In this document: in pieces, positions 1 through 49,328 of the stretch
Numbering within the stretch: position 1 is the first letter of the stretch
Layout of the letters: every line of letters starts with the position of its first letter
Assembly: GCF_010470675.1 (NCBI RefSeq)
Contig: NZ_VOIQ01000014.1
Span: forward strand, 60,978 to 124,977
Length of the DNA: 64,000 nt
Source: Desulfovibrio sp. JC010
GTDB lineage: Bacteria > Desulfobacterota > Desulfovibrionia > Desulfovibrionales > Desulfovibrionaceae
Reading direction: 5' to 3'
Notes under the pieces: generated by a model
Told to the model about the DNA's origin: nothing
The model's input: the letters and a program-made list of their open reading frames with translations, nothing else
The model's database searches: none
Position numbers and translations under genes: made by a program

Positions 1-1960
1 TTGCATCTCGGGCATTGATGAGCAGGTTGATGACCACCTGTTCAAGTCTGTTGGCATCGGCCATAATTATGGGCAGATGGCTGTTCAGGTTCCATTCAAC
101 GCTGATATTGCGCAGGGTCAGCTGCCTGCTGAAAAATTCAAATCCCCGGCGCAGCACATCGTTGACCTGCACGGGCATGGTTTTCATATCTGATTTACGG
201 CCGAACTCGCGCATGTGGTCGATGATCTTGCTGGCCCTGTTGACGTGGGTGTCCACACCTTCCGCCATTTCACGCAGAATCTTCGGTTCTATTTCCTGAT
301 CCCGCGAAGCCTTGCGCATAAGCAGGTTGCTGATGGTCTTGAGGATTGCAAGGGGCTGGTTCAGTTCATGGGCCACCCCGGATGCCATCTCACCCAGTGT
401 ACTCATCTTGCTTGCCTGAATCAGCTGTTGTTCGGCTTCCAGCTTCTGGGTCACATCACTACAGGTGATGATCAGGGTTTTATTGCCGTCAAATTCGGCC
501 GGGGAAATACGCAGTATGGCATAGATGGCGGTTCCGGACTTTGTGACCTGAGAGCAGGGGCCGATTTCCTGTTTTACCTTAAGCAGGTGTTCGTAGTCCG
601 GCCGTTCTTCTTCGCGGAAAAGATGCAGGAAAGAACTGCCCAGAATCATTTTTCGCGAATAGCCGTAAATTTCTTCCACCGGGTCATTGCAGTTGAGGAT
701 GGACAGATCTTCGGCATCAAGCACAAACACCGCTTCGGGGATGGAATCAAAAATTGCGTGGTAACGCTGCTCGGATGCGGCAAGGCTTACTTCGAGTTCC
801 TTGCGGCGGGTAATGTCGAGCATCATTTCCATGGCGGCGACGATTTTTCCATCACGGTCTTTGATGGGGGAAGTGTAAACGATCCAGTGGATGGGGTTGC
901 CGTCCTTGGATCGACCTGATTCCTCGCTCATGTGCGGGGTCAGGTCAAAAAAAGTTCTTTCCACCGGACATTCTTCGCATTTGCTGTCGCGGTCCTTGTT
1001 GATCTGGTAACACTGCCTGCCGCGCGGTTTGCCGAAATGCTTTTCGTAAGCCTTGTTGTGGCGGATGACTTTGAAGTTGAGATCAACCACGGAAACAAGA
1101 CAGGGTACATTGTCAAAGAGGTCGCGGTATTCTTCTTTCTGCTCCAGCAGGGCGCGGTGTTTTTCCTGTACCTGCCTGCCCATCATGTTGAATGCATCGG
1201 CAAGGGTGCCGATTTCATCGGTCTGGGCCAGCTGTATTTCAACAAAATCCTGTTCCGATCCGAATTCACGGGTGGCCGTGATTAACTGGCTGATAGGTTT
1301 GAATATGAAATTGTAGGCAAATACGAAAAGAGCACCGAATGTTGCAATAAATACGACCAGTGCAATTCCGAAGTTGGCCCGTTCAAAAGTAGCCAACATG
1401 GAGTTTTTCTTTTCCGTGGATATTTCAAGGTCAAGCAGACCGAGCAGTTTCTCATCAACAGCGTGAACATGACAGGGACCCGGAGCACACCCTTCCGAGT
1501 TGGGGATCGGGGTCATGATGCCCATGAACTGTCTGCCGTTTACGGTTTTCAGTCTGGTGCGCTGTTCAAGGTCCATGGTGGCCGGAGGATCATCGTGTTG
1601 GTGGCAGTTCCAACAGGGCGGGCTTTTGATGTCGATGACATTGTGGATTTCATCCGGGTCGTTGGAGTAGATGATCTCTCCTTTTTTATTGATAACCCGG
1701 ATGGACTTGATTTCGCCCTGCCTGCTGATGTTGTTGATGTCGTTCTGAATGAACTCTTTGGAGTCGAGCAGCATGGCGTGATGCAGACTGAGCAGCACGG
1801 TATCGGAAAGCATGGCTATATCGGACTGGATATTGCCGGTGACGTTCTTTTTGAAAAAGACCACATTGAAACTGGTCCAGAGAATCACGCTCAGGAGCAG
1901 GGTGATTCCCCCGGAAAGGATCATTTTCATGATCAGGGTGTGACGGTACTTTTTGAACAA
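1..1960 (-). CDS. Membrane sensor histidine kinase with c-type haem motifs (partial, C-terminus beyond window)
   Basis: Read by translating the reverse strand; the reading frame is open to base 1. Start taken as TTG at 1960, with AGGGG 5-9 bases upstream and a basic stretch (MFKKYRHTL) before the first membrane segment; an ATG at 1930 is the alternative. Order: membrane helix (about 10-32), periplasmic domain with CWNCH at residues 116-120 and CAPGPCH at 158-164, second membrane helix, HAMP, a PAS domain carrying CEECPVERTF, a second PAS, then the phosphoacceptor box with GVAHELNQP (His about residue 531) and the N-box NARDA at the window edge. CXXCH and CX4CH are covalent c-haem sites in this group of bacteria, so I infer a periplasmic redox or gas sensor. 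It lies 24 bases after rrf2, in one operon with the kinase and regulator upstream. Haem attachment is inferred, not shown. Confidence 0.85.
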   Translation of the reverse strand, partial: MFKKYRHTLIMKMILSGGITLLLSVILWTSFNVVFFKKNVTGNIQSDIAMLSDTVLLSLHHAMLLDSKEFIQNDINNISRQGEIKSIRVINKKGEIIYSNDPDEIHNVIDIKSPPCWNCHQHDDPPATMDLEQRTRLKTVNGRQFMGIMTPIPNSEGCAPGPCHVHAVDEKLLGLLDLEISTEKKNSMLATFERANFGIALVVFIATFGALFVFAYNFIFKPISQLITATREFGSEQDFVEIQLAQTDEIGTLADAFNMMGRQVQEKHRALLEQKEEYRDLFDNVPCLVSVVDLNFKVIRHNKAYEKHFGKPRGRQCYQINKDRDSKCEECPVERTFFDLTPHMSEESGRSKDGNPIHWIVYTSPIKDRDGKIVAAMEMMLDITRRKELEVSLAASEQRYHAIFDSIPEAVFVLDAEDLSILNCNDPVEEIYGYSRKMILGSSFLHLFREEERPDYEHLLKVKQEIGPCSQVTKSGTAIYAILRISPAEFDGNKTLIITCSDVTQKLEAEQQLIQASKMSTLGEMASGVAHELNQPLAILKTISNLLMRKASRDQEIEPKILREMAEGVDTHVNRASKIIDHMREFGRKSDMKTMPVQVNDVLRRGFEFFSRQLTLRNISVEWNLNSHLPIIMADANRLEQVVINLLINARDA

Positions 1961-13100: not shown

Positions 13101-13424
13101 ATGAACTATTATATTGAAATATTGAAGAAATTTAATGATTTTAGCGGAAAGGCGGACCGAGGTGAATTCGGTCGCTTCCTGCTCTGGCACGGTGGTATTA
13201 TCTGCATGCTGCTGTTTTTGGGTTACGCAATTGACCATGCCTTTGCACACAAGGTGATTAATACCCTGAGCGGACTTTTTATGCTCGGAACTTTGCTTCC
13301 CTGTATTGCTCTCTTTGTACGCAGGCTGAATGCACTGGGGCGTGATCCCAAGCTGGTGCTGGCAGCATTAATTCCGGTTGTCGGACTGGCTTATCTGGTT
13401 TTTGTTTGTTTGAAGCAGGATTGA
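13101..13424 (+). CDS. DUF805 small membrane protein
   Basis: A 107-residue protein with the DUF805 layout: an N-terminal amphipathic part with FSGKADRGEF (the family's F-x-G-R-A-x-R-x-E/S-F type motif), a hydrophobic segment, a second one followed by the conserved VRRLNALGRD, then a C-terminal helix. AGGAG lies 8 bases before the ATG. Members are inner-membrane proteins of unknown biochemical role. It is a single-gene unit with its own promoter and terminator, divergent from hmcA. Confidence 0.85.
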   Translation: MNYYIEILKKFNDFSGKADRGEFGRFLLWHGGIICMLLFLGYAIDHAFAHKVINTLSGLFMLGTLLPCIALFVRRLNALGRDPKLVLAALIPVVGLAYLVFVCLKQD

Positions 13425-13448
13425 GAAGCTGTAAATATTGTTTTGTGA

Positions 13449-13493
13449 GAAAGGACTTGAAGTATTGGGTGTTTTAAGTCCTTTCGTTTTTTT
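13449..13493 (+). terminator. Intrinsic terminator after the DUF805 gene
   Basis: GAAAGGACTT (13449-13458) pairs with AAGTCCTTTC (13476-13485), followed by G and a run of seven T. Confidence 0.8.
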
Positions 13494-13783
13494 GAATAAT
13501 ATTAACGCTCGTATTTGGTTCGAGCTAAAGTTGTAACATTCAATTATTGATATTCAGGTTTGAGTTAATGTTGTTTATTTATTGAAGTGTCAGTGTGTTT
13601 AAGAAAAGCAGGGTGTGGTTGAGTCGGGTGGTTCTGCTTAATTTTAAAACATTTTGCGAGTCTGGGGTTGACTTTTGAAAATAATGTATAAATTTCGTTT
13701 GACTTATTTTTGAAAAAACATGTAGAGTCTATAAAACAAAGCGCATAAAAGCTATAGCTTGCTCTATGGTTGAGTTGAAACAA

Positions 13784-14027
13784 TATAATAAAGTCGAGCT
13801 GGAATGAGTGGTTCTTGGATAGAATATATGTGTCCGTATACCCTTAAGAGGGTCTTTTGTATTTGTGAGTCAATAGAGTGGCCTGATCGGCACTCGGAAA
13901 TTTCTTTTGGTGCACATGTCTTAATATTTGCGAAGCAGTTATTTCATTTTTTATTAAGGGTCTCACGCCCTGGCCGTTACAAGCCGTATTATGATGCAGT
14001 CTGTGCTTCATGATGCGGTATTTTTTT
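13784..14027 (+). ncRNA. Candidate structured leader or small RNA upstream of the unknown three-gene cassette
   Basis: The 666 bases from 13425 to 14090 hold no convincing protein gene. A TATAAT (13784-13789; weak -35 upstream) could start a transcript of about 230 bases that ends at the strong terminator at 13984-14027. Within it are short hairpins: ACCCTTAAGAGGGT (13838-13851), GAGTG...CACTC (13876-13895) and AGGGT...GCCCT (about 13957-13971). The transcript could be a separate small RNA or an attenuated leader of the genes starting at 14091. I know of no RNA family that matches. A 69-codon ORF (13804-14013) overlaps it but has poor support. Confidence 0.3.
13984..14027 (+). terminator. Strong intrinsic terminator 64 bases before the unknown cassette
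   Basis: CCGTAT pairs with ATGCGG and an inner stem TATGATGC pairs with GCTTCATG (one mismatch), seven-base loop, followed by seven T (14021-14027). It implies transcription from upstream, although no clear gene ends here. Confidence 0.75.
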
Positions 14028-14049
14028 ATTCTATTTATTTTTAACGGGG

Positions 14050-14079
14050 TATGGCAGGTATAGAAATTAAGCTGCCATA
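14050..14079 (+). repeat. Inverted repeat abutting the ribosome-binding site of the cassette's first gene
   Basis: TATGGCAG (14050-14057) and its exact complement CTGCCATA (14072-14079), 14-base spacer. The second arm touches the AGGGTGAG ribosome-binding site. It could be a protein operator or an mRNA hairpin controlling translation. Confidence 0.6.
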
Positions 14080-14090
14080 GGGTGAGTGAG

Positions 14091-14624
14091 ATGACTAATA
14101 CTACAGAAGATAATAAACCAAGTGATACGTCTAATCCTACATTGAAAGAATTTTATTATAATCATAAAGATACATATACTCTTCCGTTTGGTACAGGTGA
14201 ATATGCTGTGTATGATTTGCTATTAGATGAAGATACTGACAATAATCTTGGTGCTGGAGAAGATATAGTCTTATCTGCCAGCTGTCTTTGTGAGCCAGTA
14301 TCTGTCTTTGATGATGTGAAACCAGAAGTTCTTACAGAGACTGAACCTTATAAAAAAAATGATGATCTTGAAGTTGCAGCGGGTAGGTTAGATTTTAAAT
14401 CTAGTGTATATGAACATTTGAAATCAGGATTTGTACTTAAATCAGGACCTGATGTTACAAATTCGAGTAGTAGTATGTATGAAGAAAGCGAGTTGTTTCC
14501 TGATATATACTCTACTGATGTGGGTGAATTGGAACAACTACGATCTTATATTGGAGTTGGTTCCATAGACACAGATCTTAGCGATGAAGCCTATGCTGAT
14601 TTAAAATTTCTTTACGATTTTTAG
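14091..14624 (+). CDS. Unknown protein, first gene of an A/T-rich three-gene cassette
   Basis: 177 residues from the ATG at 14091, chosen because AGGGTGAG lies 5-12 bases upstream; a GTG at 14082 would overlap that site. Acidic and Ser/Thr-rich, with no signal peptide, membrane segment or family I recognise. The codon use is A/T-rich like the next two genes and unlike hmc or lytS. It ends 5 bases before the next start, so the genes are probably cotranscribed. The low-complexity N-terminus (MTNTTEDNKPSDTSNPT) suggests a disordered tail. No function can be given; a small partner or regulator of the 1402-residue protein is only a guess. Confidence 0.7.
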   Translation: MTNTTEDNKPSDTSNPTLKEFYYNHKDTYTLPFGTGEYAVYDLLLDEDTDNNLGAGEDIVLSASCLCEPVSVFDDVKPEVLTETEPYKKNDDLEVAAGRLDFKSSVYEHLKSGFVLKSGPDVTNSSSSMYEESELFPDIYSTDVGELEQLRSYIGVGSIDTDLSDEAYADLKFLYDF

Positions 14625-14629
14625 TTGTA

Positions 14630-15211
14630 ATGCCTTATTCAATTCGTATTTTTCATTCGGAATTATATAGTAATGACGATTGGTCCACTAGCTATGTTTA
14701 TTTTGGCAGTAAACAACTAAAGCCGAAGGGCCCCTCTGTTCAAGGATGGTATGAGGAGAGGGGGCAAGCCAAACATTGTTGTGAATATACTGACACGGAA
14801 ATTAAATGTCCTTTTTGTCAGAAGATAGTTGATATTCAATTTTCCTCATTTAGGTCGCACTGTTGTCCTAGTAGCTCGCCCGGTAGTTTTTTCAACCCAT
14901 TACGAACATATTTTTTTTCTATAAAAGATGTAGATCCGGGACCGTTTAATAGGTGGGTTGGAATTAGGTTTGGCGAAGAATATTGGCCTCATAAAATTAA
15001 TCCAAAGTTTATTCCAGGCAAAGGTATTTTTTCATGCAATTTAAGCCCAAAGCATAATACTTGGGGTGGTAGCTCTGGGAGCTGTGTTCAATGTTATGAT
15101 CGTATGGAAAAATATACTGACGCCAGCTTTCTGCATATAGATAAAGGTGTAGATTATAGGAAAAATCCGATTTTTTCTCAAGATAAATCAATGTTTAGGT
15201 ATTTAAAGTAA
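14630..15211 (+). CDS. Unknown Cys-rich, probably zinc-binding protein, second gene of the cassette
   Basis: A 193-residue soluble protein. Cys pairs look like metal sites: CPFCQK near residue 61, HCCPSS about twelve residues later, FSCNLSPKH, and SCVQCYDRM near 150. Aromatic-rich elsewhere. No family recognised. The gene starts 5 bases after the previous stop without a clear ribosome-binding site, so it probably depends on translational coupling. It is followed 33 bases later by the 1402-residue gene. The zinc-ribbon-like pairs would fit nucleic-acid or protein binding, but that is inference. Confidence 0.7.
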   Translation: MPYSIRIFHSELYSNDDWSTSYVYFGSKQLKPKGPSVQGWYEERGQAKHCCEYTDTEIKCPFCQKIVDIQFSSFRSHCCPSSSPGSFFNPLRTYFFSIKDVDPGPFNRWVGIRFGEEYWPHKINPKFIPGKGIFSCNLSPKHNTWGGSSGSCVQCYDRMEKYTDASFLHIDKGVDYRKNPIFSQDKSMFRYLK

Positions 15212-15244
15212 AAAATTTAAGTTATGCTCATTTAAGGAATCCAC

Positions 15245-18200
15245 ATGCCTACAAAAAACACCTCATACACCAACGCTCTGCTTTTTACTACATACACAGA
15301 TGTAATTGACCGCATAGACACGTTGTTTATGGATATCAGGCACTTGCAGACTTGTGTGTCACATACACTTGGTATTGCGTCACTTAATTCGCTTCTTGAA
15401 TATGAAGAACGTTATCTGTGGGAACGTCAGCAGATAAAAGATATTACAGATATTTCTGATGAAATTCGTAAGTGGATTCCTTCCTGTCCGGCTATGACGA
15501 GTTTGGATACTGAGAATAGCGTTTCTGACGGGGATGAGGACGATGCTTCTGGCAAGTGGGTTAGATCACCAGAACTTGAGCGTTTATTAAAGACAATAGC
15601 TGAAGATCTGCATGCTACATGGTGGAGTTATAACCAGAGCATGGATAGGAGACGGCACTACTACACCTTTAGATCTCTACAGTTGATCAAACGCAGTGTT
15701 TTAGAATGTAAATTGCTTTTTAATCATTATGCTGAAGAGGCTTTCCCCTATAATTTTGGTGCTGATCAGCAAAATGGTACTCCTTATGAATGTGATTGGC
15801 CTGCGATAATACAGTTTTTGATATTGCGTCGCGGAGTAATGCATACTCTTGGTGATATTGTAGAAAGAGTCGGCGCAATCAAGAATAATTTTGGGCGCAA
15901 TTCTGAAAGAACCATGAATGAAGACCCCCCGTACCTTACATCGTGGTACCGGGAGCACAATTTTTTCAGCCAGTTTCTTGTTGATAGCTGTAAGGATGCT
16001 TATAAAGAAATTCATACCTTTTTAGATATTACGAGTAAATATGCTCTTGATGCAAAGAATAAAGACAAATTGAAGCCCGGTTCGAATATTGTTCATCATG
16101 AGTGGGCGCATAAAAACATATCTAGTTTTCGAGTCATCAATGACAGTAACAGTCCCACTGGGAACAGTAAGCCGACATATGCGGTAAGTAGCTCTTATTG
16201 GACCCCTAACCGTCCGGATTTACAGAGTATTATTGCTCACGAGGTCTCTCATGCTGTAGCACTTGAGGTATGGGGAGGGTATGGTGAGAAGATTGATCAT
16301 TCTGCTGATATGAATGTTTTTGATGAGTTTATCAGCTATATTTATGGAACAGCAAAGCGGATAAATCCGTCAAATCCCCATGTAACTAAAGGTTTTCTTG
16401 AAATCCCTGTAGATTTACTTGCATTGGTTTCTAAATCCGGGGCGTATCTCTTTGCTTTTTTTCTGGAGTATATCTGCTATGGCGCAGAAACGCTTTTGCG
16501 TGATGGGCATACGCCTGTAAAATTGGATAAAATTCATAGGTTAGACATTAAAAATAATCTTCAATTTTTTCAACTCCATGATTGGAATTGGTTTTTCCGT
16601 TTAATGTCGTTGTGTGAGTTAAGCGATGTTTTTTTTGGGGAAGGTGAAGAGAATGATGCAAAATTCCCCTTGGAGAAGCAACTTGTCGCTGGAATAAGGG
16701 ATATTTGTCAGTCCATCCGTAATGAAGTTCCTGAAGAAGATATGAGTTCTGCTAGAAAAAAAGACGAACTGTCTACATTTGAAAGTGTAGATATTTTTTG
16801 GAAAGCTTTTCAGGATGATTTAAAGATTTTTAAAGTAGAAAAAAAACTAGCAGAAGATTTCAAGCGTTGGCGGGAATTGCATTACAGTGATTATTGGAGT
16901 TGTGACCTTGAATCAAATTACACGCATAAAGACGGTTCTGGTTCTGGGTGGAAGCACGGTGATATGGAGCTTCCGCGTCACACTAGAGGATTGCATGGGT
17001 CTGTTAGAGATTTTTTGCAAGCTTCATTTTTTAAAGAAAAAATTTCACATTTAAAAAAGATTCATACAAAGAATAAAACGAATATCAATTCTGCTGATGA
17101 AGTTGTTTTTACGAAATATGAAATTGATGAGTTGAAAGATGTTTATGGTATTTCTGATGTAAAGTATAGAACTTGTCGTTGCAGTAATAAAAAAGTGGGG
17201 CTTGATACAGAAGTGTATGATAAGGGCTCCTCTAGTGCAGAGTCTTCTGAAAGCGTTGAAGCTGGTAAGTATTGTTACCTTTGTTGTAACCCAGTTTTAT
17301 TCTCATACTTAGAAGATATTCCTTGGACGTGTTCAGTTTTTAGGGCACTTGATTTAGTCGCTCCCAATAGTCCCTTGCGTGTTGATCGAGATTCTAAATT
17401 GTCTAAGTCCGTAAGTTTAATTGGTAGAGAAGCAAAAGATGATAACAATAATTTGTTATTAGAATATAGATATAAAGTAATTCATAAAAAATGGGCTCTT
17501 GGTCGGACGTTACATCAGATTGCTGTTGATTTTCATGTAAACCAGACCGAGAGTAAAAGTCATCATCTCGGTATTATTTGTGGCGCACTGCTGCGCAATT
17601 GTATTGACAAAGAAGAACTTGTGAAAGACCCTCTTTATGCAGATTTACGTACTTGGTTGTTGGGGGCTTTTGTTGGCTCAAAACAAGAAACAAAGTATTG
17701 GAGGTCTTTAGATAGCGGACTCCGTAGTATGGATGATGTTAAGCATTATGTTGATCCTAATTATGTTGCTGAATTTATGGGGTTTGATAAGGGTGGCGAT
17801 CCAGCAAAAGATTCAGTTGACTCTAAATGGAAAAAGGTTTTGTTTCCATCGCTAAAAGAATATGTGGACAACGATGTAGCAGATAAGTGTCTTAATGAAT
17901 TATATATTTCTTGTGCTGATAATTTTTTGAAGATGCCTCCAAATAAGATTTTTGCAAATATGATTAATAAAGATGAGTACAATCCTCAAGCTGATAATCT
18001 TACAGATTATTTCAATTACTCACAGTCGGTGAATTCATCTTTTTATCCAAAGGAAGTATTAGATAAAATTAAGCTGTATTTTCAGTATCCTGTAGATCCT
18101 AAAAAGTCTTTTATTCGACATTTTCCTGCTGTGTTGTTGTGTCAGTTGTTTATTATGTCTTCCAGTGAATGTGTTAGGCGTTATTTAGATAGAATTATTC

Positions 18201-19453
18201 TTTTTAAACTTTATGAGTTGTATAAAATTTTTTCAAAAGTAAAAGATGTTAACGGTAATAGGCTGCAAAATGATTTCTTGCCAATTTATAGTATTTTAAA
18301 GTCTAAATACAAAGACTCTCCTGCAGATAGTGAATATATGGAGATGAATGATTTCTATGATAATATCGTTGAGGCGTACGGAGCTTCTAAAGATTGTGGG
18401 TGTGCAAGTGAATTGCAAAACTATGTTATTGGTCGTTTGAAAATTGGCGGTAAGGCTATGCATAGAGGGCAAATAGATAGTAAGTGCTTTTTGTGGAATA
18501 GAACTCCATTTCGCGAAGCAGAACCAAAATTACCTATGGATCATTGTGTTACTACCTTAGGAAGGTATGATTGTATTGTAAGTAATGAAGGTGTTCCGCT
18601 TGAACGCATCAAGATTATTTCTTCGAATTCAGATGCTAAACGCATGATGGCCTACCATCCGAGATGGGAATTGGGTTTCAAACTCAAAGGATTGTTTGAT
18701 AATAATCATGTTCCTACTAGAGGAAATTGTAGTCAGTCTTTAGATGCTCCCAAATCTAAGGCCATTGCATTTTTGTATGTCTCCCTTAATAGAATCGGTA
18801 CTAGACTTGATATGCTTCACCGTTTGAAAATGGTCTTTAAAGAACACCACGATATAAAATTAAGTGATTCTGAGCGTATTTCTGATTGCAATGTAACTAT
18901 TGCCAGGCTGAAAGAAGGAAAGCAGGAATTTATCGAAGATTGTGTAAATCTTTTTACGAAAGAAGATGAATTCTATTTAAGTGATGGTAAACACGACATG
19001 CTTATTGTTTTTAATGGAGGGGCTGACAGACTAGATAGTATTCTCCAGATAGCAAAGTGTTTTTATGATGATATTTTAACTGAACGTGCAGAACTGACTA
19101 TAGCTAACTCAGATAAAGTTTTGGAACATTTTTTTAAGGATAAGACTTGTGTTGATGGGGCTCATGTCTATATCAGACTCAAGCCCAATAGATTGATGTC
19201 AGTCTCTTATGATAGAATTTTCGGTAGGATTAAAGAGATCGCACCTGATTCTGAAATCTTCAGTATCCCCGGTCGTGAGGATATGGCAGTAAGAATTGAT
19301 CCGGCAAAAGAAGGGGCTTATGATGAATATTGTAAGCTGGTTGGTCTTAAAGAAGTGCCGAAGAGGGCTGGAGAATCTGAGTTGAACCATCTGGACTGGA
19401 TTGAATCAAGCAATACTTATCTGTTATTTGATGGACCTGTTAAGCAGGTATAG
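15245..19453 (+). CDS. Unknown 1402-residue protein with HEXXH motif, Cys cluster and two C-terminal repeats
   Basis: AAGGA lies 6 bases before the ATG. Visible parts: a helical N-terminal region; HEVSH at residues 332-336 inside SIIAHEVSHAVALEVWGG, the signature of zinc metallopeptidases, with an acidic DEFISY about 25 residues on that could give a third ligand; a Cys group CRC at 644-646 and CYLCC at 677-681, zinc-ribbon-like; and at the C-terminus two segments of similar plan (strand, helix, G-x-x-D-M strand, helix), with GKHDM at 1248-1252 and GREDM at 1343-1347, which recall Lrp/AsnC-type ligand-binding folds. No signal peptide or membrane segment, so cytoplasmic. No P-loop seen. Last gene of the A/T-rich cassette and followed by a strong terminator. 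Size and composition resemble defence or conflict proteins, but there is no direct evidence. Function unknown. Confidence 0.8.
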   Translation: MPTKNTSYTNALLFTTYTDVIDRIDTLFMDIRHLQTCVSHTLGIASLNSLLEYEERYLWERQQIKDITDISDEIRKWIPSCPAMTSLDTENSVSDGDEDDASGKWVRSPELERLLKTIAEDLHATWWSYNQSMDRRRHYYTFRSLQLIKRSVLECKLLFNHYAEEAFPYNFGADQQNGTPYECDWPAIIQFLILRRGVMHTLGDIVERVGAIKNNFGRNSERTMNEDPPYLTSWYREHNFFSQFLVDSCKDAYKEIHTFLDITSKYALDAKNKDKLKPGSNIVHHEWAHKNISSFRVINDSNSPTGNSKPTYAVSSSYWTPNRPDLQSIIAHEVSHAVALEVWGGYGEKIDHSADMNVFDEFISYIYGTAKRINPSNPHVTKGFLEIPVDLLALVSKSGAYLFAFFLEYICYGAETLLRDGHTPVKLDKIHRLDIKNNLQFFQLHDWNWFFRLMSLCELSDVFFGEGEENDAKFPLEKQLVAGIRDICQSIRNEVPEEDMSSARKKDELSTFESVDIFWKAFQDDLKIFKVEKKLAEDFKRWRELHYSDYWSCDLESNYTHKDGSGSGWKHGDMELPRHTRGLHGSVRDFLQASFFKEKISHLKKIHTKNKTNINSADEVVFTKYEIDELKDVYGISDVKYRTCRCSNKKVGLDTEVYDKGSSSAESSESVEAGKYCYLCCNPVLFSYLEDIPWTCSVFRALDLVAPNSPLRVDRDSKLSKSVSLIGREAKDDNNNLLLEYRYKVIHKKWALGRTLHQIAVDFHVNQTESKSHHLGIICGALLRNCIDKEELVKDPLYADLRTWLLGAFVGSKQETKYWRSLDSGLRSMDDVKHYVDPNYVAEFMGFDKGGDPAKDSVDSKWKKVLFPSLKEYVDNDVADKCLNELYISCADNFLKMPPNKIFANMINKDEYNPQADNLTDYFNYSQSVNSSFYPKEVLDKIKLYFQYPVDPKKSFIRHFPAVLLCQLFIMSSSECVRRYLDRIILFKLYELYKIFSKVKDVNGNRLQNDFLPIYSILKSKYKDSPADSEYMEMNDFYDNIVEAYGASKDCGCASELQNYVIGRLKIGGKAMHRGQIDSKCFLWNRTPFREAEPKLPMDHCVTTLGRYDCIVSNEGVPLERIKIISSNSDAKRMMAYHPRWELGFKLKGLFDNNHVPTRGNCSQSLDAPKSKAIAFLYVSLNRIGTRLDMLHRLKMVFKEHHDIKLSDSERISDCNVTIARLKEGKQEFIEDCVNLFTKEDEFYLSDGKHDMLIVFNGGADRLDSILQIAKCFYDDILTERAELTIANSDKVLEHFFKDKTCVDGAHVYIRLKPNRLMSVSYDRIFGRIKEIAPDSEIFSIPGREDMAVRIDPAKEGAYDEYCKLVGLKEVPKRAGESELNHLDWIESSNTYLLFDGPVKQV

Positions 19454-19479
19454 GTTCAGTTTTTAATTTGTTATGAAAG

Positions 19480-19520
19480 CGGGGCGGTATGTTTTTCCAT
19501 ACCGCCCCGTTTTATTTTTT
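19480..19520 (+). terminator. Intrinsic terminator after the unknown cassette
   Basis: CGGGGCGGTAT (19480-19490) pairs with ATACCGCCCCG (19499-19509), followed by TTTTATTTTTT. It lies between convergent genes; the opposite strand has only a weak T tail. Confidence 0.85.
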
Positions 19521-21255
19521 ACCCCGCATTCCCGGCAAACTCACGCATCTGTACAGCTGTTTTCAGCTTGGGAACCCGGAAACTTATGGTTGTTCCTTTG
19601 CCTTCCACACTGATGATGACCATCTTGTACTGCGGGCCGTAAATCTGTTCCATACGCTGGATACAGTTGCGGACTCCTATCCCTTCTTCACGGGAATCGA
19701 TTTTCTTTTTGGCATAGATAGCTTCAATTTGATCCTGACTCATGCCTATGCCGTCATCGTCAATTGAAACGTGCATCTCTTCGTTGTCGCAATAAATGTC
19801 GATGGTAATGGTTCCGCCTTCCTCGCGGCCCATGAGTCCATGTTTTACGCTGTTTTCCACCAGCGGCTGGATAATCAGCGGCGGGATGGGCCATTCCTGA
19901 CATGCATCTTCCACATTGAGGTCCAGCTTGACCCGTTCTCCGAAGCGGGCCTGTTCAATGGCCAGATAACTGTTTAACTGGGCCAGTTCTTCGCGCAGGG
20001 GGACGTAGCCGCGGCTGCTGTCGAGGTTTTTGCGCAGGTATTTGGAAAGCTCCAGAAGCAAGTCACGGGCGCGGTCCGGATTGGTGCGGCAGAATGATGT
20101 TACCGTATTCAGTGAATTGAACAGGAAATGGGGATTGATCTGGGCCTGTAAACGGCGGATTTCCGCATGGGCCAGCATTTGTTCTTTGATCTGGATTTCC
20201 TCCAGTTCCAACTGGGTGGAGCAGAGGTTGGCCAGACCTTTGGCCATTTCGAATGAGAGCTGGTCCAGCTGGTTATTGCGGGTTCCGTAAAGTTTGAGTG
20301 TGCCGACTACTTCGCCGTTTTTGTGCAACGGAATTATCGCAGCTGAGGTAAAGGGGCAGCCTTTGTGGGTACAACCGATTTTGCTGCTGCTTTCCAGAAA
20401 AAGGGGTTCCCCTTCGGCAAGTACTTCCAGCGTTGACTCGGTGCGTATTTTCTTACCCGGAAGATGATGATCCGCCCCGGCCCCCACGTGGGCCAGCACA
20501 TTGACGTTGTCGGTAATGGCAACTGCTGCCGCGCTGAGATGGGCGTGGATGATCTTTGCGGTTTCCTGAGCCGATTCCAGAGTGAGTCCTGAGCGCAAAT
20601 GGCTGACCGTAAGGTTGGCAATGTCCAGAATGTGCTGGGCCTTTACTGAATCCTGCTTGGTTCCGTGGCGGAAAACAATATTGATGACCTGTGCAAAGAG
20701 TGCCGCGCCGAAGGTGTTCAGCACGATCATGGGCATGGCGATTATTTTTACCAGCTGCAAAGCTTCATCGTAAGGATGTGAAAGATAGAGGACCATGATC
20801 ATATGGACTATCTCACCCACGAATGCCAGTCCGGCAGCGGCCCGCCAGTCCATTTTTTTTGCCAGATACAGGGAGACAATCCCGGCAGCCAAACCTTCGA
20901 TCATGGTCGCCGTGCCGCAGGGAATGGCACTGAAGCCGCCAAGGTCGATAAGGATGCGGTGTCCTCCGGCGATAAGTCCCGCTCCGAGACCGACCAGCGG
21001 TCCGCCGAACAGCCCCCCGGTAATGACGGCCATGGCGCGCAGGTTGGCTACGGATTGAAAGACGAAGTTGCCGCCGTAGGTGCCCAGTATTCCGCAAATT
21101 CCGAAGATAAGAATCTGCAGGGCAATATTGGTTTTGGGGGAACTCTGCCGGAACCCGATTTTATGGATCGGGGTAATGGTCAAAAGCAGAAATGCCCCGG
21201 CCACAATAAGGCCGAAACGTTCTGCCAAAGTAATAATTAAGGTCTCTGGGTTCAT
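19519..21255 (-). CDS. LytS-type sensor histidine kinase
   Basis: A 578-residue membrane kinase. The N-terminal 190 residues hold the 5TMR-LYT multi-helix sensor (including NLRAMAVITGGLFGGPLVG). A GAF-like domain follows (about 225-350, with ASSKIGCTHKGCPF as a Cys-containing loop). The kinase part is the LytS/YehU type: phosphoacceptor in NPHFLFNSLNTV and ATPase boxes PLVENSVKHGL and DDDGIGM. The start lies one base after the stop of the LytTR regulator gene, so the pair is cotranscribed. LytS proteins elsewhere sense membrane potential, cell-wall state or pyruvate; the ligand here cannot be told. Confidence 0.92.
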   Translation of the reverse strand: MNPETLIITLAERFGLIVAGAFLLLTITPIHKIGFRQSSPKTNIALQILIFGICGILGTYGGNFVFQSVANLRAMAVITGGLFGGPLVGLGAGLIAGGHRILIDLGGFSAIPCGTATMIEGLAAGIVSLYLAKKMDWRAAAGLAFVGEIVHMIMVLYLSHPYDEALQLVKIIAMPMIVLNTFGAALFAQVINIVFRHGTKQDSVKAQHILDIANLTVSHLRSGLTLESAQETAKIIHAHLSAAAVAITDNVNVLAHVGAGADHHLPGKKIRTESTLEVLAEGEPLFLESSSKIGCTHKGCPFTSAAIIPLHKNGEVVGTLKLYGTRNNQLDQLSFEMAKGLANLCSTQLELEEIQIKEQMLAHAEIRRLQAQINPHFLFNSLNTVTSFCRTNPDRARDLLLELSKYLRKNLDSSRGYVPLREELAQLNSYLAIEQARFGERVKLDLNVEDACQEWPIPPLIIQPLVENSVKHGLMGREEGGTITIDIYCDNEEMHVSIDDDGIGMSQDQIEAIYAKKKIDSREEGIGVRNCIQRMEQIYGPQYKMVIISVEGKGTTISFRVPKLKTAVQMREFAGNAG

Positions 21256-30529: not shown

Positions 30530-33500
30530 TTATGCAGGGTCAAAAACTTCAAAGGTAATTTCGTTCTGTTCAATGTGAACGCTGATACCTTCTCCTGTGG
30601 AGTTTTCGGTGGAGTCTCCACCGGAGCCTTCTTTTATCCCATTGAAATCCTGATCACTATCACTTGCAGCAGTGAAGATTTCAGTCTGGTTAGTCGTTGT
30701 TGTGATATCACCTAATGTGAAATTGAAAGTTTTTTCAGCTTCGGCAACAGCACCGGTTACATCATTTTGACCAGTGATTTTTAAGGTGTAATTGCCGTCT
30801 GTCAAAGATTGGGCAAAGCTGGACTGCCAGCTATCAGTATTGAGTGTGTATGAGCTGTTATCGGTAGTATTAGTCAGTTCAACTGTGTACGAATCAATAT
30901 CCAGCTTGTCATCAAAATCAGCAGTGTAGTCCAGATCTGTGTCATCAAGGTCATGGAAGTAGGATTTTGATTCGTTTCCTGCCTCATCAACAACCTTTAC
31001 TTCAATATATTCATCATCAGTTGCAGCTTTGTGATAAAACTCCGGTCTGGTCGAGTCCAGAGGAGAACTCTTAGGATCACTGCTGCCTCCGTCAGTATGG
31101 TGAACTATTATTTCATATTTGTCGCCATCATCATAATCACCGAAGTTTTGCATTTTGTATTCAGTGAGGTTGTTACCTATGTAGCTGGCTGTGATGCTCG
31201 GGGCTTTCATATTGTCGTCATTGTAAAGCTCAAATTCAGTTGATGAAGCAAGAGAGGTGTTTCCTGCTTCGTCAGTGGCTTCTATGGATACAGTATAGTT
31301 CCCGTTGGCCAGATTGTGCTCAGGGTCATGGATTTCAAAAGAGTACTCTCCAGCCTTGTTCCCGCTGTCATCATCGGTTCCAATGACGCTTATGTTTTTA
31401 ATGTAGGAAGTGTTGGATGGATCATCTGCCCCATCTGCACCGGCAGTATGAGTGTACTCATATGTCCCGTCCGGACCCGAAATAGTGATTTTGTAGCCGA
31501 TGTTGCTAAAATCAGGGTCTCCATCTTCGTTGAATTCGCCTGCAAATTCACCCGTGAACCTGAACACTTCTCCGCTGGTGAGATCATCACTTGCATTAAA
31601 ACCGCGGTCAGAATCACCGTCGAGGTCGATGTCAACAGTTGCGGGGTCGGTGTCAACATTCAGGTTAACTGTTACATTGTGTTCGTCAGACTGGTTATTT
31701 ACATCATCGTAGAACTTAAGGGTGTAGCTCAAGTCTCCGTCATCCAGTCCTTTATCCAGTGAATCAATGAGAACAATAGTTGCAAGTCCGGCACTGTTTA
31801 CATCGAAGAATCTGCTGCTTCCGTCAGGACGAATCAGCTGTACCCTTGAAGTGTCGGCCGCTGTCTGAATTGTGAAACCTGTTTTATTGTCGTTGGTTGA
31901 AATATCGAGTGTCCGGGAGTCCGAGTCGTTAGGATCGTAGTCGATATTGACAGTTTTATACTCTCCATCGGTATGATAAGTGAGTTGTGTGCCCGGCAAT
32001 GGGTCGGCAGTATCAACGTCGACAGTGTAGTCGGAAGTCTGGGCATTGCCTGCTTCGTCAACTGTTACCAGCTTGTATTCAAGCTGATGAGCTCCGTCAT
32101 TAATGCGAACCGTACCGTTTTCAGTGACAAGGGTATTGTCGGGGTAGTCTGTTGACTGAACGGTATACGTGGTGTTGGAAGCCATTGTACCCGAGTCAAC
32201 CTTGACGTACTTGTCCTCATCCTCGTCGTAGCAGTAGAGAACGTAAGCTGCGCCGCTTTCTCCTCGCAGGACAAGTGTTGCGTCTGTTTCATTAGTATAG
32301 AAAGTGTCCGGCTGGCTGTCTCCTCCGTCGTGGCCGACAGTTCCGTTGGCAACGGCAATGTCCGCGTTTGTGGTAAGGCTGCTGTCTACCTTCAGCTCTA
32401 TTGTTTCATTGGCGATATTACTTGCGTCGTTTCCTGCTGCGTCTGTGGCGGTAACTGTTATGGTGTGCGTGCCGTCATCCAGAGCTTCGCCGCTCTTTAA
32501 GGTATAGTCCCACTCTCCGGTAGTCTCATCCGCCGTGGTGGTGAATGTATTGGGACTGCCACCGGAAATAATGGTTATTTTTATGGACGCTCCGGGTTCT
32601 GCTGTACCTTTCAAGGTCGGGGTGGAGTCGCTGGTCAGTGCGTCTGTCTGGAAAGTTGCCAGTTTAGCCTGATAGTCAGACGGCAGGTCTGCATATACAT
32701 TTATTCCATCAAGCTGTGTGGTCTGGGCAAAGAATGAGTCACTGCCCGAATCCAGTTCCAGAGTGGGGACATCGGTTGAAGTATCCAGCTCAAGAACATG
32801 GTCAGCTTCAGCGGAACTTACGTTTCCGGCCTTATCTTTCGTGGTTACGTTAATCAGGTACTGGCCGTCTTCAAGCTTGCTGTTATCACTGAGGTTGATG
32901 ATGTTGGTACTGTAACTGCCGTCCGAGGTGTTATCGCCCGAGACTGTGTAGGTCTCAACATCAGCGGGATCATCGGATACAAGATAGGTTTTGCTGTCCT
33001 TGGTTGTGCTGTTGTCGTCAGTGACGCTGGTTTTCGCAATTCGAACGGTGGCACCGTCTTTTACATAAGTATAGTCGTCTCCATCGGCTGTCAGTTCGTA
33101 AACACGGGTAGCCTCAATGCTGACTTCGGAACCTTTTTCAACATCTCCGGTCAGTGTCGGATCTGAAGTAACCCAGTCATTATTGGTTACATTTTCATTT
33201 TCACTGGTATCGTTGCCAAGATTGATTTTGGGGTCTTCTATGCCGTTATCAACTACCAGAGTGAAGGTTGTGGACTGTTTTTCCTCGCACTTTACATAAT
33301 ACTGGTGCGGTTCAGTATCATCCGGGTTGGTGGTAAATGTATAGCTCCAGCTGCCGTCTGCGAGAACGGCGATAGGGTTCACATTAATCTTGGTACCGTC
33401 AATATCGTAGAGATCGACAGTGCTGTAGGCAATGGCGGTTCCTTCCAGAGTCAGCATGGGATTGTCCGGAGTATCATCTCTGGCAGCGAGAACCGGGACA

Positions 33501-36500
33501 CTGACGTAGGTTGTGTTGGTGGCTTCGTCTGTTTCCCCGGTATACTGGTCGGTGTCCAGTCCGAGAGTGGGCTTTGAAACCAGGTCCTGCTCAATGTAAA
33601 ACTTGGTTGAGTCGCTGACGCTGTTGCCCGCTTCATCCGTGCTGGTGATAGTGGCGGTGTAGGTTCCGCCGCGAATGTGCGAGTATTCCGGATCAGAACC
33701 GATATCGTATGACCAGTAACCCTGACTATCGATAGCTAAATCCGAGGCTTCCAGCACTTTGGAATTCCCATCGGTATCAACGATGGTGATTCTGGTGGTT
33801 ACACCTGCGGCATCATCCAGCTTACCTTTCAGCAGCGGAGTCAGGTCGTTTGTACTTTGTAAGGTTGTACCATCTTCATAAGTATGTCCGTCAGTCAATC
33901 TTGACCCATTGTCTTTGTATATTTCGATTTCCGGAGTTGCCGGCGGTTGATTGTCATGATGAAATTCAACAACCTGCGCGGAAAGGTTTCCGGCTTTATC
34001 TTCAGCAACAATGACTACCTTATAGTTGGTCTCTTCCGGATTTGAGTCAAAGGACGGATAGGCTGTCCATGTCCCATCGTTGAAGCTCGCAGAGTTGGCC
34101 TTGAGGGTTGCAAGATTGGCCGTGACGAAACTTTCCAGATTGTTCGAATCGCTGAGGTCAGCAACGTTGTATCCGGCATCCCCTTCCTTGAAGACGATCA
34201 TCTGGACTTTGCTGTCGGCTTCAGTCGTGATGGTGATTTTCGGGTCGTCAGTATTTGTCAGGTAGACGCCGTTGTCTGCAGTGATGTCTGTTTCGCCGTT
34301 TTGAATCTTGCTTATTGTAACATCAGGATCGGTTTGATCGATGGTAATGGGCTGCGATATAGTCGTCGTACTGGATATATCGGAAGCTTCATCTGTAGCA
34401 GTAAACTCAAAAGTATAGGTTCCGTCGGGAAGGCCGTTGCCATTTGCAATCAGTGAGTCGGTATTGAATTGTGTTGCGTTAATATCTGCCTGATCGTTGA
34501 AAACAAGGGTGGTTCCGCTACCTTCTTTCTGACCGTTACTGTCAAGCTTCCAGTAGGTCATGGTAATGTATGTTCCGGTACTTTTATGGACCGTGAAACT
34601 GGCGTCATCAAATTTTGTGGTGCCATCGTCTGTTGTGTCCGCTGCATCGAAGAACAGAGGGGTACTGTCATTGACCAGTGAAACGGTTGGCGCGTCCGGT
34701 CTGGGCGCAATGACCAGATCCGTATTCGGGCTCATTTCAATCAGTTGCGTATTTCCTGCTACGTCAGTGACTATGGCCACTACTTTGTAGTTTCCGGGGG
34801 AAAGGTTGGGCGGGGTTACCTCCCAGTCGCCGGTATTTGCATCAGCGTAAACTGTTGCCGAATATGTTACACCGCCATTCTCAGTTATCGTCCCATCTGC
34901 ATTAATGGTAGATATCAGGTTGTCGTTGGCATCATATTCGAGAATCTTGAGTTCCACTTTCGCTCCGGATTCGGTTTTACCCTCCAGAGTGGGGTTGAGG
35001 ATAGTGGTGATGGTATCGTTTTTATCACCGGCATTATCATCGTCATTGAGTTTAATGTCCCCGGTGGGATCCGTGGTGTCGATGACGAGTGACTCGGATA
35101 TTGTGTTACTTACGTTGCCCGCTTCATCTTCCACAGTTATTTTGATTGTGTTGGAAGTATCGGCTCCGATATTTAGGGTCGTAGAGCTGTTTCCGTCGGG
35201 ATTGGCAAGATCAATGGTAGCCTTCCCGTCATTGATTTCCTGCGTGGTGAGGGGGCGAGTGTATGTCTGTCCATTCAAGACAATGCTGATGCTTTTAGGG
35301 TCATCTTCAGTGATTGTGACATCAATTTTGAGACCGTTATCAACATTGGTAATCCAGTCATCACCGGAGAGGCCGGTGTCCATGCTGTCACCACCTGCGT
35401 CATCGGCAAGGACGGCTGTGATTTCCGGCGCGGTACGGTCGACATGAATATCCACAGTGTCATCATTTGCAGGAAAAACAGTGATGTTTCCAGCGGCATC
35501 TTCAACTTCAATGCTGAATTTGTGGTCGCCGTCTGAAATGTAGTTGTTAGCGTTTGCAGTGTTACCGATGGTGTATTCCCAGTCGAACCCATTGGCTGTC
35601 TTGGTTGCGGTAACGGTGTCCACCAGAGTCTTGGTTCCGGAAGCACTGTCATAGATACGCACCACGGGAGCACTGACAGTAGGTGCATTGGTGAAGCCGC
35701 TAAGGTCAATGCCGTCATCAAAAGAACCGCTCAGGGTCAGGGTTTTGGCATTGGTAAATGTTTTGTCGCGATAATCCGTGGTCGCTGTAGTTGAAATTAT
35801 TGTGTCATTGGTATCGGTAATGAGTTCAATGGCACCGTCTGTAGGCATTTCCGGAGCTTCGTCATCAAGAAGCACTGTGTAAATATCGGAGGTTGCAGTG
35901 TTCCCTGCATTATCTGTGGCTACGGCAATGAACTGGATCGCGTTTTCTGTGCCATCATTGAAGTAATCACTGGCGGCAACAGGAACAACGCTTCCGTCTT
36001 TTATCGCATCACCATTGGCAAGAACGATTTCCTTTAAGATAGTCCCGTCGTTTGAGACCATGTAAACCTTGAAAGTTGCATCGACATCACCGCTGATTTT
36101 CAGGTTTACCACCTGTCCTTCGGTATCCTCGAAATCAGTGATGTAATCACCGTCGGTTCCGGTATCTGTAGTGCTGTCCAGAGTGATGACTGGCTTGGCT
36201 GTCTGCAAATCTGATTCAAAAGTGAATACCTTTGACTCTGAGGTGTTGCCTGCGGCGTCCTCCACTTTAACGTAGTAAGAGCGCACCTCTTCGTGGGTCA
36301 GGCCGGACACAGCATAAGTCCATGTGTATGTGCCGTCATGGTTGTCCACTATCTGAACACCGCTGCTGCCCAGTTTGCTGTGGCTTATTTCACCAATCTC
36401 ATTGCCTTGGGCATCTTTTAGAATATTGCCCAGTTCATCGCACTGGTAAAGAGTTACGATTACATCATCGCCACCTTCCTTGATGACACCTGTGAGGGTG

Positions 36501-38659
36501 ACACTTTCACCCGCGACCACTGTTTCATGGCTGCCTACATAAGCGTTTTCGGCAGTAATAGTGGATTTGTCCGGGTCTTCGTTGTCTACTGTGACAGTCA
36601 GGTTGGCGTGTTCGATGTTGCCTGCTGTATCAGTGATTTCCGCACGAAAATAAACTTTTTCCGCACCGTTGGTACCGTAGCTGCTGGCATCGAACTCATC
36701 ATAGGACCAGCTGCCGTCGGTTTCGGCAGCAATAGGGGTGGCGTTGATGGGAACGGGATTGTCCGTAACAACTCCGTTCTCATCAATATATTTCCCGTCC
36801 GCATTGACAAGGTAGAGGTTAACAAGTCCCTGATTGCCTGCGTTTGTCCCTGTAATCTTTAAATTACCTTCATCAATACCGGATGCGTTGCCGGCTTCGG
36901 CGCCGTGGGTGTAGTTGTCTTCGGTGGTTCCGAGACGTGCGCCGTCGGCTGTGGAATCGCTGTCCGCATCAAGATCAATGGTCAGCCCGTTTGTGGGGGC
37001 TTCGCGGTCGATGGATACGGTCAGGCTGGCACTGGTTGATGTCTCATTGCCAGCCATGTCAGTGGCTTTGACCATGAATTTGTAATCGATATTATTCGGA
37101 ATGTCTGAGTTGGCTACGGTGTAGGTCCAGACATCGTTGGCTGCATCATATGTAGCCGGGCCAAGGTCAACAGTCCCGCCGTTGGCTGTTGCCAGCATGA
37201 CGACGACTTCCCGGGCTTCACCACTGATATTGTCGATAGTCAGGTTCAGTTCTTCTGCATTAGTGATGTGGTCTTCGTTCAGCGGGTCTACACCGATACC
37301 TCTGCTGTTGGACTCATCATTCATGGTAATGGTCGCACCTGTTGAAAAGCCGGTTTTGACCACTACATTCTGAATAGTTTCACTAGTAGCGAGATCGTTA
37401 CCTGCGTCATCTTCCCCGGTAATGGTGAAGTTGTAGGTCCCGTCATTTAGGCCGTTGCCTTCATTGTCTTCAGGAAAACGTACACTCCAGTTGCCGGAGC
37501 TGTTTACTGTAACTGGATCAAGGGTGCCGCTTACAGCATTACCGGCACTGTCCGTTCCCGTATAGGTGATGGTCAGAATGGTGTCTTTTTCACCGGAACC
37601 TTCCAGCAGGGGGCGGTCATCATTGGTATAAATTTTTCCTGCGTCCTGCGCAAAAAGGGTTTTAGAAGTTGAGTCTACTGTTGCATCACCGTTAAGTGTC
37701 GGATTAGTAGTATCTACTTCAACTTTTAAAGTGCTTGATTTGGGAGCAGTATCTGCATTGCCCTCAGCTATCTGGGCAAAATATTCGTGTTCGCCTTCGG
37801 CAGCTCCAGTAACGGTTATTTCATAATTGCCGTCAGCATCAGCGGTGGCCTGTCCGATAGGAGAGTCGGAACCGACTGTATAAATGTTTAGCACAGTTCC
37901 GGGATCAGCAGTACCGACGATTTTGAGGTCGGTTTTATTGGTGATGCCGTCATCTTCATATACAGGGTCGGCAGCAGTGCTTTCAGCTGTTTCAATGCCG
38001 GATTCAGATTCCTGTGAAAGGGCAATCGTCACCTTGCCGCTATTTTCGTTGTTGGCATTGGCGGTGTTGGCTGGGTCGGTCGGTTCCGGTTCCGGTTCTG
38101 GTTCAACTGGATCTGGATCCGGCTCCGGATCATCTGGTTCTGGCTGATCAATCTCTTTCGTTGCGATTGGTTCAGTCTGATCAGGAGTACTGGAAAGGCT
38201 GTTCTGTTCGGCGAATTTTTCAATATCATCGAACATGCGCTGCTGGCTTTTGAGAATATCATCAGTGGGGTCAGTCATGAGCGCGGCCTGAGCGGTCTGG
38301 ATAGGCTCAAGCTGTCCTTCTACGAGGTTTCCTTCTTCAGAGTTGCCTTCCGTTTCGGAAGGGGTGCCCTCATCGGTAACGGCTTCCCATTCGGGGGCTT
38401 CTTCATCCTGCTTGTCCATGTCCAGCATTTCGGAGCGATTGAAGATGTCCTGTGATTCAAGGGCGTTTCCATCGGAGAACTCCATGTTGACCTTTCCGTC
38501 AAGGCTCATGATGTTACCCACAAAGAGGAAGGTCTGTTCTTCATTGGTCTCTTTGTGGACCAGAACAAGGTCTGCGCCTTTGAGAACATAACGGTAATCG
38601 TCCGGGGAGCCCTGAACGCTATATACTGTCGATGGGGAAACTTTTGTTGCGTCAGCCAT
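30530..38659 (-). CDS. Giant repetitive surface adhesin secreted by the type I system (LapA/BapA-like)
   Basis: A 2709-residue acidic protein. The first 75 residues (VYSVQGSPDDYRYVLKGADL onward) look like the N-terminal retention module of LapA/BapA adhesins. An acidic proline linker follows (PEPDPDPVEPEPEPEP, about residues 175-195). The rest is a series of Ig-like domains of about 90-110 residues in which D-x-A-G-N recurs about 15 times and each domain opens near T-D-P/N-P. The C-terminal 200 residues differ and would hold the secretion signal. No glycine-rich RTX nonapeptides were seen. A TAAD near residue 230 is the nearest thing to a LapG-type cleavage site. It lies 3 bases before the TolC gene stop and is followed by the MotB-like gene. 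Role: attachment and biofilm formation, by family resemblance. Confidence 0.9.
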   Translation of the reverse strand: MADATKVSPSTVYSVQGSPDDYRYVLKGADLVLVHKETNEEQTFLFVGNIMSLDGKVNMEFSDGNALESQDIFNRSEMLDMDKQDEEAPEWEAVTDEGTPSETEGNSEEGNLVEGQLEPIQTAQAALMTDPTDDILKSQQRMFDDIEKFAEQNSLSSTPDQTEPIATKEIDQPEPDDPEPDPDPVEPEPEPEPTDPANTANANNENSGKVTIALSQESESGIETAESTAADPVYEDDGITNKTDLKIVGTADPGTVLNIYTVGSDSPIGQATADADGNYEITVTGAAEGEHEYFAQIAEGNADTAPKSSTLKVEVDTTNPTLNGDATVDSTSKTLFAQDAGKIYTNDDRPLLEGSGEKDTILTITYTGTDSAGNAVSGTLDPVTVNSSGNWSVRFPEDNEGNGLNDGTYNFTITGEDDAGNDLATSETIQNVVVKTGFSTGATITMNDESNSRGIGVDPLNEDHITNAEELNLTIDNISGEAREVVVMLATANGGTVDLGPATYDAANDVWTYTVANSDIPNNIDYKFMVKATDMAGNETSTSASLTVSIDREAPTNGLTIDLDADSDSTADGARLGTTEDNYTHGAEAGNASGIDEGNLKITGTNAGNQGLVNLYLVNADGKYIDENGVVTDNPVPINATPIAAETDGSWSYDEFDASSYGTNGAEKVYFRAEITDTAGNIEHANLTVTVDNEDPDKSTITAENAYVGSHETVVAGESVTLTGVIKEGGDDVIVTLYQCDELGNILKDAQGNEIGEISHSKLGSSGVQIVDNHDGTYTWTYAVSGLTHEEVRSYYVKVEDAAGNTSESKVFTFESDLQTAKPVITLDSTTDTGTDGDYITDFEDTEGQVVNLKISGDVDATFKVYMVSNDGTILKEIVLANGDAIKDGSVVPVAASDYFNDGTENAIQFIAVATDNAGNTATSDIYTVLLDDEAPEMPTDGAIELITDTNDTIISTTATTDYRDKTFTNAKTLTLSGSFDDGIDLSGFTNAPTVSAPVVRIYDSASGTKTLVDTVTATKTANGFDWEYTIGNTANANNYISDGDHKFSIEVEDAAGNITVFPANDDTVDIHVDRTAPEITAVLADDAGGDSMDTGLSGDDWITNVDNGLKIDVTITEDDPKSISIVLNGQTYTRPLTTQEINDGKATIDLANPDGNSSTTLNIGADTSNTIKITVEDEAGNVSNTISESLVIDTTDPTGDIKLNDDDNAGDKNDTITTILNPTLEGKTESGAKVELKILEYDANDNLISTINADGTITENGGVTYSATVYADANTGDWEVTPPNLSPGNYKVVAIVTDVAGNTQLIEMSPNTDLVIAPRPDAPTVSLVNDSTPLFFDAADTTDDGTTKFDDASFTVHKSTGTYITMTYWKLDSNGQKEGSGTTLVFNDQADINATQFNTDSLIANGNGLPDGTYTFEFTATDEASDISSTTTISQPITIDQTDPDVTISKIQNGETDITADNGVYLTNTDDPKITITTEADSKVQMIVFKEGDAGYNVADLSDSNNLESFVTANLATLKANSASFNDGTWTAYPSFDSNPEETNYKVVIVAEDKAGNLSAQVVEFHHDNQPPATPEIEIYKDNGSRLTDGHTYEDGTTLQSTNDLTPLLKGKLDDAAGVTTRITIVDTDGNSKVLEASDLAIDSQGYWSYDIGSDPEYSHIRGGTYTATITSTDEAGNSVSDSTKFYIEQDLVSKPTLGLDTDQYTGETDEATNTTYVSVPVLAARDDTPDNPMLTLEGTAIAYSTVDLYDIDGTKINVNPIAVLADGSWSYTFTTNPDDTEPHQYYVKCEEKQSTTFTLVVDNGIEDPKINLGNDTSENENVTNNDWVTSDPTLTGDVEKGSEVSIEATRVYELTADGDDYTYVKDGATVRIAKTSVTDDNSTTKDSKTYLVSDDPADVETYTVSGDNTSDGSYSTNIINLSDNSKLEDGQYLINVTTKDKAGNVSSAEADHVLELDTSTDVPTLELDSGSDSFFAQTTQLDGINVYADLPSDYQAKLATFQTDALTSDSTPTLKGTAEPGASIKITIISGGSPNTFTTTADETTGEWDYTLKSGEALDDGTHTITVTATDAAGNDASNIANETIELKVDSSLTTNADIAVANGTVGHDGGDSQPDTFYTNETDATLVLRGESGAAYVLYCYDEDEDKYVKVDSGTMASNTTYTVQSTDYPDNTLVTENGTVRINDGAHQLEYKLVTVDEAGNAQTSDYTVDVDTADPLPGTQLTYHTDGEYKTVNIDYDPNDSDSRTLDISTNDNKTGFTIQTAADTSRVQLIRPDGSSRFFDVNSAGLATIVLIDSLDKGLDDGDLSYTLKFYDDVNNQSDEHNVTVNLNVDTDPATVDIDLDGDSDRGFNASDDLTSGEVFRFTGEFAGEFNEDGDPDFSNIGYKITISGPDGTYEYTHTAGADGADDPSNTSYIKNISVIGTDDDSGNKAGEYSFEIHDPEHNLANGNYTVSIEATDEAGNTSLASSTEFELYNDDNMKAPSITASYIGNNLTEYKMQNFGDYDDGDKYEIIVHHTDGGSSDPKSSPLDSTRPEFYHKAATDDEYIEVKVVDEAGNESKSYFHDLDDTDLDYTADFDDKLDIDSYTVELTNTTDNSSYTLNTDSWQSSFAQSLTDGNYTLKITGQNDVTGAVAEAEKTFNFTLGDITTTTNQTEIFTAASDSDQDFNGIKEGSGGDSTENSTGEGISVHIEQNEITFEVFDPA

Positions 38660-49180: not shown

Positions 49181-49328
49181 ATGATAGATTTGCACTGATT
49201 TGCATATAGTTGCTTAGCCCTTATTTTTTGCATGATTAGCGTAAATTTGTTATACCTCCTTTTGCATACTTTAGCACCTGTTTTCTGCCCGTTTGTGGGG
49301 AATAGTGTGGGGAAGAATTGGAGGAATT

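Follow-up and report, generated by a model that had tools for sequence, protein, structure and literature searches.

Protease effectors seem to account for little of the bacterial defense repertoire described so far, and Lit, one of them, is small in size. The methods by which new systems are found depend on conserved neighborhoods, and a cassette present in a single copy is invisible to discovery that proceeds from the neighborhood. Lit, an HEXXH zinc protease, cleaves EF-Tu and keeps out phage T4 (PMC3014915), and this precedent indicates that an HEXXH protease can serve in phage exclusion. A second parallel (PMC7159879) is a zincin whose gene adjoins that of a small protein that diverges fast and is acidic in one type, in the vicinity of ternary conflict systems of the VMAP/FtsH kind. 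Here we describe a locus in a 64,000-nucleotide stretch of DNA from Desulfovibrio sp. JC010, the whole of which is referred to as the window. Our favored reading, which we put forward tentatively, is that of a three-gene islet, likely gained horizontally, whose 1402-residue product, predicted to be a cytosolic zinc protease, would likely serve as a suicide or anti-phage effector.

The earlier note had described three tightly spaced genes whose composition differs from that of their neighbors, and both points were borne out. Three plus-strand open reading frames lie where it had put them (Table 1), with gaps of just 5 and 33 nt, a spacing which suggests that they form one operon, and their GC contents are 0.339, 0.366 and 0.371, compared with 0.45 to 0.54 in the five flanking genes, with GC3 at 0.17 to 0.31 in the islet genes and 0.48 to 0.62 in those five. 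The frame of gene 3 is intact across all of its codons. The first product is indeed an acidic protein, with a pI of 4.05 and 38 Asp/Glu among its 177 residues, though by inspection without a run of four acidic residues, and the codon-position GC of its gene (0.50/0.34/0.17) argues that it is a real coding sequence. The second is Cys-rich, as had been proposed, having 9 Cys in 193 residues, including CPFC and CVQC pairs.

Table 1. Features of the islet and its edges, in window coordinates.
Feature	Position	Strand	Remarks
Terminator-like hairpin, left islet edge	13449..13485	+	After the DUF805 gene; 17 pairs, T-rich tail
A/T-rich leader	13486..14090	+	Mildly structured, without a convincing gene
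Hairpin followed by a T-run	13985..14028	+	About 60 nt upstream of gene 1; absent from the pattern-scan list
Gene 1	14091..14624	+	177-aa acidic protein, without a confident relative
Gene 2	14630..15211	+	193 aa, rich in Cys; CXXC twice; predicted zinc binder
Gene 3	15245..19453	+	1402 aa; HEVSH at 332-336, candidate third ligand E361, Cys cluster at 644-696
HEVSH codons of gene 3	16238..16252	+	Residue 332; coordinates by arithmetic
Strong terminator-like hairpin, right islet edge	19476..19513	+	After gene 3

The block is flanked by cytochrome, DUF805 and histidine-kinase genes, over its two sides, and it occupies most of the interval between the DUF805 and kinase genes, which measures about 6 kb in the window and 96 bases in another genome of the same genus (G140, locus L036), where a single terminator-like hairpin was seen by eye between them. 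Because these neighbors adjoin in G140 with no block between them, we regard the block as an islet, and that it was acquired is very probable. Horizontal gain of the three genes is likely, with the empty site seen in one genome, and the composition makes a gain in this lineage likelier than a loss elsewhere. The picture of a foreign-looking cassette of undescribed proteins, missing from the same site in one relative, is supported. Kinase-side loci were compared in 13 of the 16 other same-genus genomes (the three with just a 35-36% match were left out), and none matched positions 13423-19528 of the window among the matches of more than 150 bases listed; only G140 retains both flanking genes together, and the other 12 loci are uninformative on the site because the kinase gene there has other neighbors. 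On the cytochrome side (loci from 10 of the 15 other genomes that gave a match), two loci have a DUF805 gene beside the cytochrome gene and then other genes, and an islet hotspot was not apparent in the 13 kinase-side and 10 cytochrome-side loci. The islet contains no tRNA and has no integrase, recombinase or phage family match, and its ends carry no convincing direct repeat; a 15-nt direct pair at 93% (13049 and 19350), the sole listed pair bracketing most of the islet, was taken as chance.

The islet is bounded by terminator-like hairpins, as the earlier note had it, with folding energies of -17.6 kcal/mol for 13440-13500, which spans the left-edge hairpin, and -29.2 kcal/mol for 19460-19530, which spans that on the right; by pattern scan the region has eight terminator-like sites compared with 3.8 expected. 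The proposal that the genes have a structured leader of their own held for its downstream part, in which 13780-14095 is mildly structured, 99 of 100 shuffles folding less well (z -2.43), but less so for 13486-13800, where 91 of 100 do (z -1.41). A 69-codon frame within the leader (13804-14013) has a flat codon-position GC of 0.41/0.44/0.37. The hairpin just before gene 1 (-16.3 kcal/mol for 13985-14035) could possibly be an attenuator or the end of a leader-encoded small RNA. No sequence related to the leader DNA was found in phages or plasmids. Short matches in 15 other genomes of the genus (best, 39 bases, E 2.8e-4) were taken as chance, and an L20 leader at the terminator, suggested by a sub-threshold Rfam match (E 0.079), was rejected.

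With the whole proteins 1 to 3 as queries, Pfam, PADLOC, NCBIfam and PHROGs gave nothing under E 0.06, in keeping with the earlier view that they match no known system, and a literature search found no description of a trio like genes 1 to 3; on the strength of the literature searches and the family libraries, we take the trio to be undescribed. Among 5.8 billion proteins, protein 3 retrieved itself alone, both at full length (7,995 top word-sharing candidates, E up to 0.001) and with residues 265-425 (188 candidates, E up to 10), in a search that distant relatives may escape because its method is word-based. It has no confident match beyond its own genome (G000) in 199 family, 297 class, 348 order and 395 phylum genomes, samples which overlap and in which G000 is counted. 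Matches of 51-76 residues in three phylum genomes (E 0.002-0.008) were taken as chance, as was one in G300 to residues 808-883 (E 0.0024). The whole protein was likewise without a match in GTDB species contigs, viral contigs and plasmids, and none of 50,697 phage records matched it with E up to 1; 31 Burkholderia plasmid records aligned with residues 480-1179 (E 4 among the matches listed) were attributed to chance. In the case of protein 1, no relative was found in phages or in the 297 class genomes, its own aside. Protein 2 has no accepted relative in searches that included the 5.8 billion proteins and the 395 phylum genomes, where short matches in 11 of the 394 other genomes (E 0.001-0.01) and a weak second place in its own genome were set aside as chance. 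Conserved co-occurrence, whose absence the earlier note had named as counting against its reading, was thus not seen: in the samples searched, which were the 395 phylum genomes for protein 2 and the 297 class genomes for protein 1, no genome but that of origin holds any of these genes with confidence. The absence of a second copy means that conservation is not shown, and it does not imply that the genes are inactive. What the locus provides is new protein families and not a proven system.

The third protein contains the HEXXH motif and the Cys cluster ascribed to it, having 32 Cys with a cluster at 644, 646, 677, 680, 681 and 696. Its HEVSH at 332 fits the zinc-protease signature, a pattern that arose in 48 of 20,000 composition-preserving shuffles of the protein, compared with 1,668 of 20,000 for any HEXXH, and a second HEXXH, HEWAH at 285, fails the stricter signature. 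The protease part of the effector proposed earlier is plausible on this basis, and from the sequence we consider protein 3 a probable zinc protease. Residue E361 lies, by inspection, 29 residues past H332 and is by its position a candidate third zinc ligand; the ligands of zincins are a subject of PMC3890501. A weak SprT-like (PF10263) match covers 23 residues at the motif in the piece 16040-16534 (E 0.023), at 15.0 bits compared with a curated cut-off of 25.6, and the whole protein has none. A Walker A pattern is absent, no relative of solved structure was found by sequence, and single-sequence AlphaFold models of residues 1-500 and 1180-1402 (both pLDDT about 36) are unusable and confirm no fold.

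The C-terminal repeats that had been attributed to protein 3 were not recovered, a BLASTP self-comparison at E up to 10 giving the full-length diagonal only, and AsnC-like (ferredoxin) repeats suspected there by eye had no such Pfam match on pieces. A degenerate receiver domain at 1265-1402 was also considered, an idea that came from weak similarity to three NtrC chains (E 0.13-0.46) and to a heme oxygenase (E 0.32), and open reading frames in G270 and G338 that weakly match protein 3 look like receivers by eye. A receiver profile from the own genome (28/30 receivers) scored 1.1 bits on this stretch, a value reached by 30 of the 780 shuffles scored (1000 made), and 60.3 bits on a control regulator. 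The hhalign receiver probability was 7%, with the stretch the best among tiles. The Pfam receiver model hit 132 sites across the genome, none of them at 1265-1402, and the domain was rejected as not significant.

The nearest likeness around the motif is phage-encoded. Residues 233-338 of protein 3 align, HEXXH on HEXXH, with a 2115-residue frame of MT836673, a record labelled as phage (28.6%, E 1 in the collection), and the alignment scores 37.4 bits compared with a maximum of 28.5 in 200 shuffles; masking the ten motif residues leaves 21.6 bits, less than the best shuffle scored, and for this reason we take the likeness to back the motif and not a family. The record itself (MT836673.1, locus L125) is unannotated, and the frame is open across the whole fetched stretch. 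Five phage records at E 1-10 were set aside as weak chance hits; among them is FLC8, whose hit over the same stretch is to a jumbo-phage head-type protein (of a head-protein family) without HEXXH. A Synechococcus phage protein, a hit at E 10, bears an HEXXH of its own and resembles Tox-MPTase2 weakly (E 0.03). These two HEXXH-bearing hits, the foreign composition of the genes and the bacterial genomes searched without a confident relative are what would be expected if the islet were carried by, or left over from, a mobile element or phage satellite of a kind not yet described, with genes that serve the element and not host defense, for example as a polyvalent protein that guards incoming DNA. 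We nevertheless hold this to be unlikely, given that the islet sits between genes that are direct neighbors in G140, that proteins 1 to 3 have no recombinase, capsid, portal or replication match, and that the search of phage records with whole protein 3 at E up to 1 came back empty.

The likeness to phage-defense systems on which the earlier note had drawn received no direct sign. With PADLOC 2.0.0 at E up to 10, none of the three whole proteins matched a family, and a scan of ten sequences (eight pieces of protein 3 together with proteins 1 and 2) gave two marginal matches, NsnC (E 0.013) and Cas13a (E 0.0046). The nearest recognized defense genes, AbiE followed by an LmuA-like gene, start at 50570, about 31 kb downstream, and since outside the islet PADLOC was run on ten genes of the window (three flanking and seven at 50.5-63.5 kb), there may be defense genes nearer than 31 kb. 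Positions 49293-62044 form a second block with A/T-rich genes, which includes a tyrosine recombinase, an AbiEi/AbiEii pair and a 1517-residue protein with an LmuA-like N terminus and an AAA domain (Lamassu-like), and which ends in proteins of 524 and 675 residues without a Pfam match. This second block indicates that the region holds foreign-looking DNA, and it does not place the islet in a defense island. Elsewhere in the genus, A/T-rich genes of 573, 401 and 375 codons in G193 (L115, 6782-11875) and of 684 and 510 codons in G172 (L118, 4829-9752) adjoin a protein that shares 22-23% identity with the recombinase of the window and are other candidate islets. Between the two blocks of the window, 30530-38659 encodes a 2709-residue protein with many bacterial Ig-like domains (Big_13), possibly a surface adhesin.

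A role of protein 3 in defense or conflict is offered as a tentative reading, less likely than not, and each of its functional steps is an inference. The three genes would be transcribed as one unit from the leader, ending at the right-edge hairpin, and the N-terminal region or the Cys cluster of protein 3 would sense a trigger, upon which zinc held by H332, H336 and probably E361 would serve to cut a protein of the host or of a phage. Protein 2, which is zinc-ribbon-like, may be an adaptor, and the acidic protein 1 may either restrain protein 3 or serve as its substrate. The same arrangement could instead be that of a toxin-antitoxin or processing pair with an accessory gene, in which protein 1 either inhibits protein 3 or is the precursor from which protein 3 cuts a signal or peptide, and phage defense plays no part. 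The gene order (small acidic, zinc-ribbon-like, protease) and the short gaps fit such a pair, but the lack of an acidic run in protein 1 does not, and a protease of 1402 residues would be unusually large; on balance we find it unlikely. The zincin with a small, fast-diverging partner in PMC7159879 is a parallel for it, although that paper ties the parallel to vWA, MoxR or FtsH (with some radical SAM), which are unmatched here. Finally, it is doubtful that the HEXXH is a coincidence in a large protein whose function is a different one, structural or in binding, as the ease with which some HEXXH arises in shuffles, the failing second HEXXH, the lack of a family match and the head-protein hit of FLC8 might suggest, given the rarity of the stricter signature and the motif-on-motif alignment with a phage-encoded frame.

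If protein 3 is an active protease, toxic or phage-blocking, then single-genome islets hide new effectors, and if it is inert, the locus becomes a useful gauge of how far orphan islets mislead. That it is the first known conflict system built on a giant sensor-protease, combining a 1402-residue zincin that has sensing regions of its own, an acidic check and a zinc-ribbon adaptor from families unseen elsewhere, is a more ambitious proposal and an improbable one.

In comparison with phage metallopeptidase-like stretches (polyvalent, Tox-MPTase2), protein 3 shares with MT836673 a local HEXXH alignment that includes the stretch preceding the motif, but the similarities are at E 1 to 10 in the collection and the masked-motif score lies under the best shuffle. 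With the SprT-like family it is alike in the residues around the HEXXH, at a score short of the family cut-off. The VMAP/FtsH ternary systems of PMC7159879 include vWA, MoxR, FtsH, AP-ATPase and radical-SAM components, none of which was found by Pfam in proteins 1 to 3. Lit is a single protein of the cryptic prophage e14, whereas here a 1402-residue protein is accompanied by two partners, and Lit is prophage-borne, whereas the three islet proteins have no phage or integrase family match. What the islet shares with Lit (PMC3014915) is the HEXXH zinc-protease motif, here the motif alone, and a candidate role as a suicide effector, and what it shares with the zincin pairs of PMC7159879 is a protease-motif gene beside a small, acidic orphan protein.
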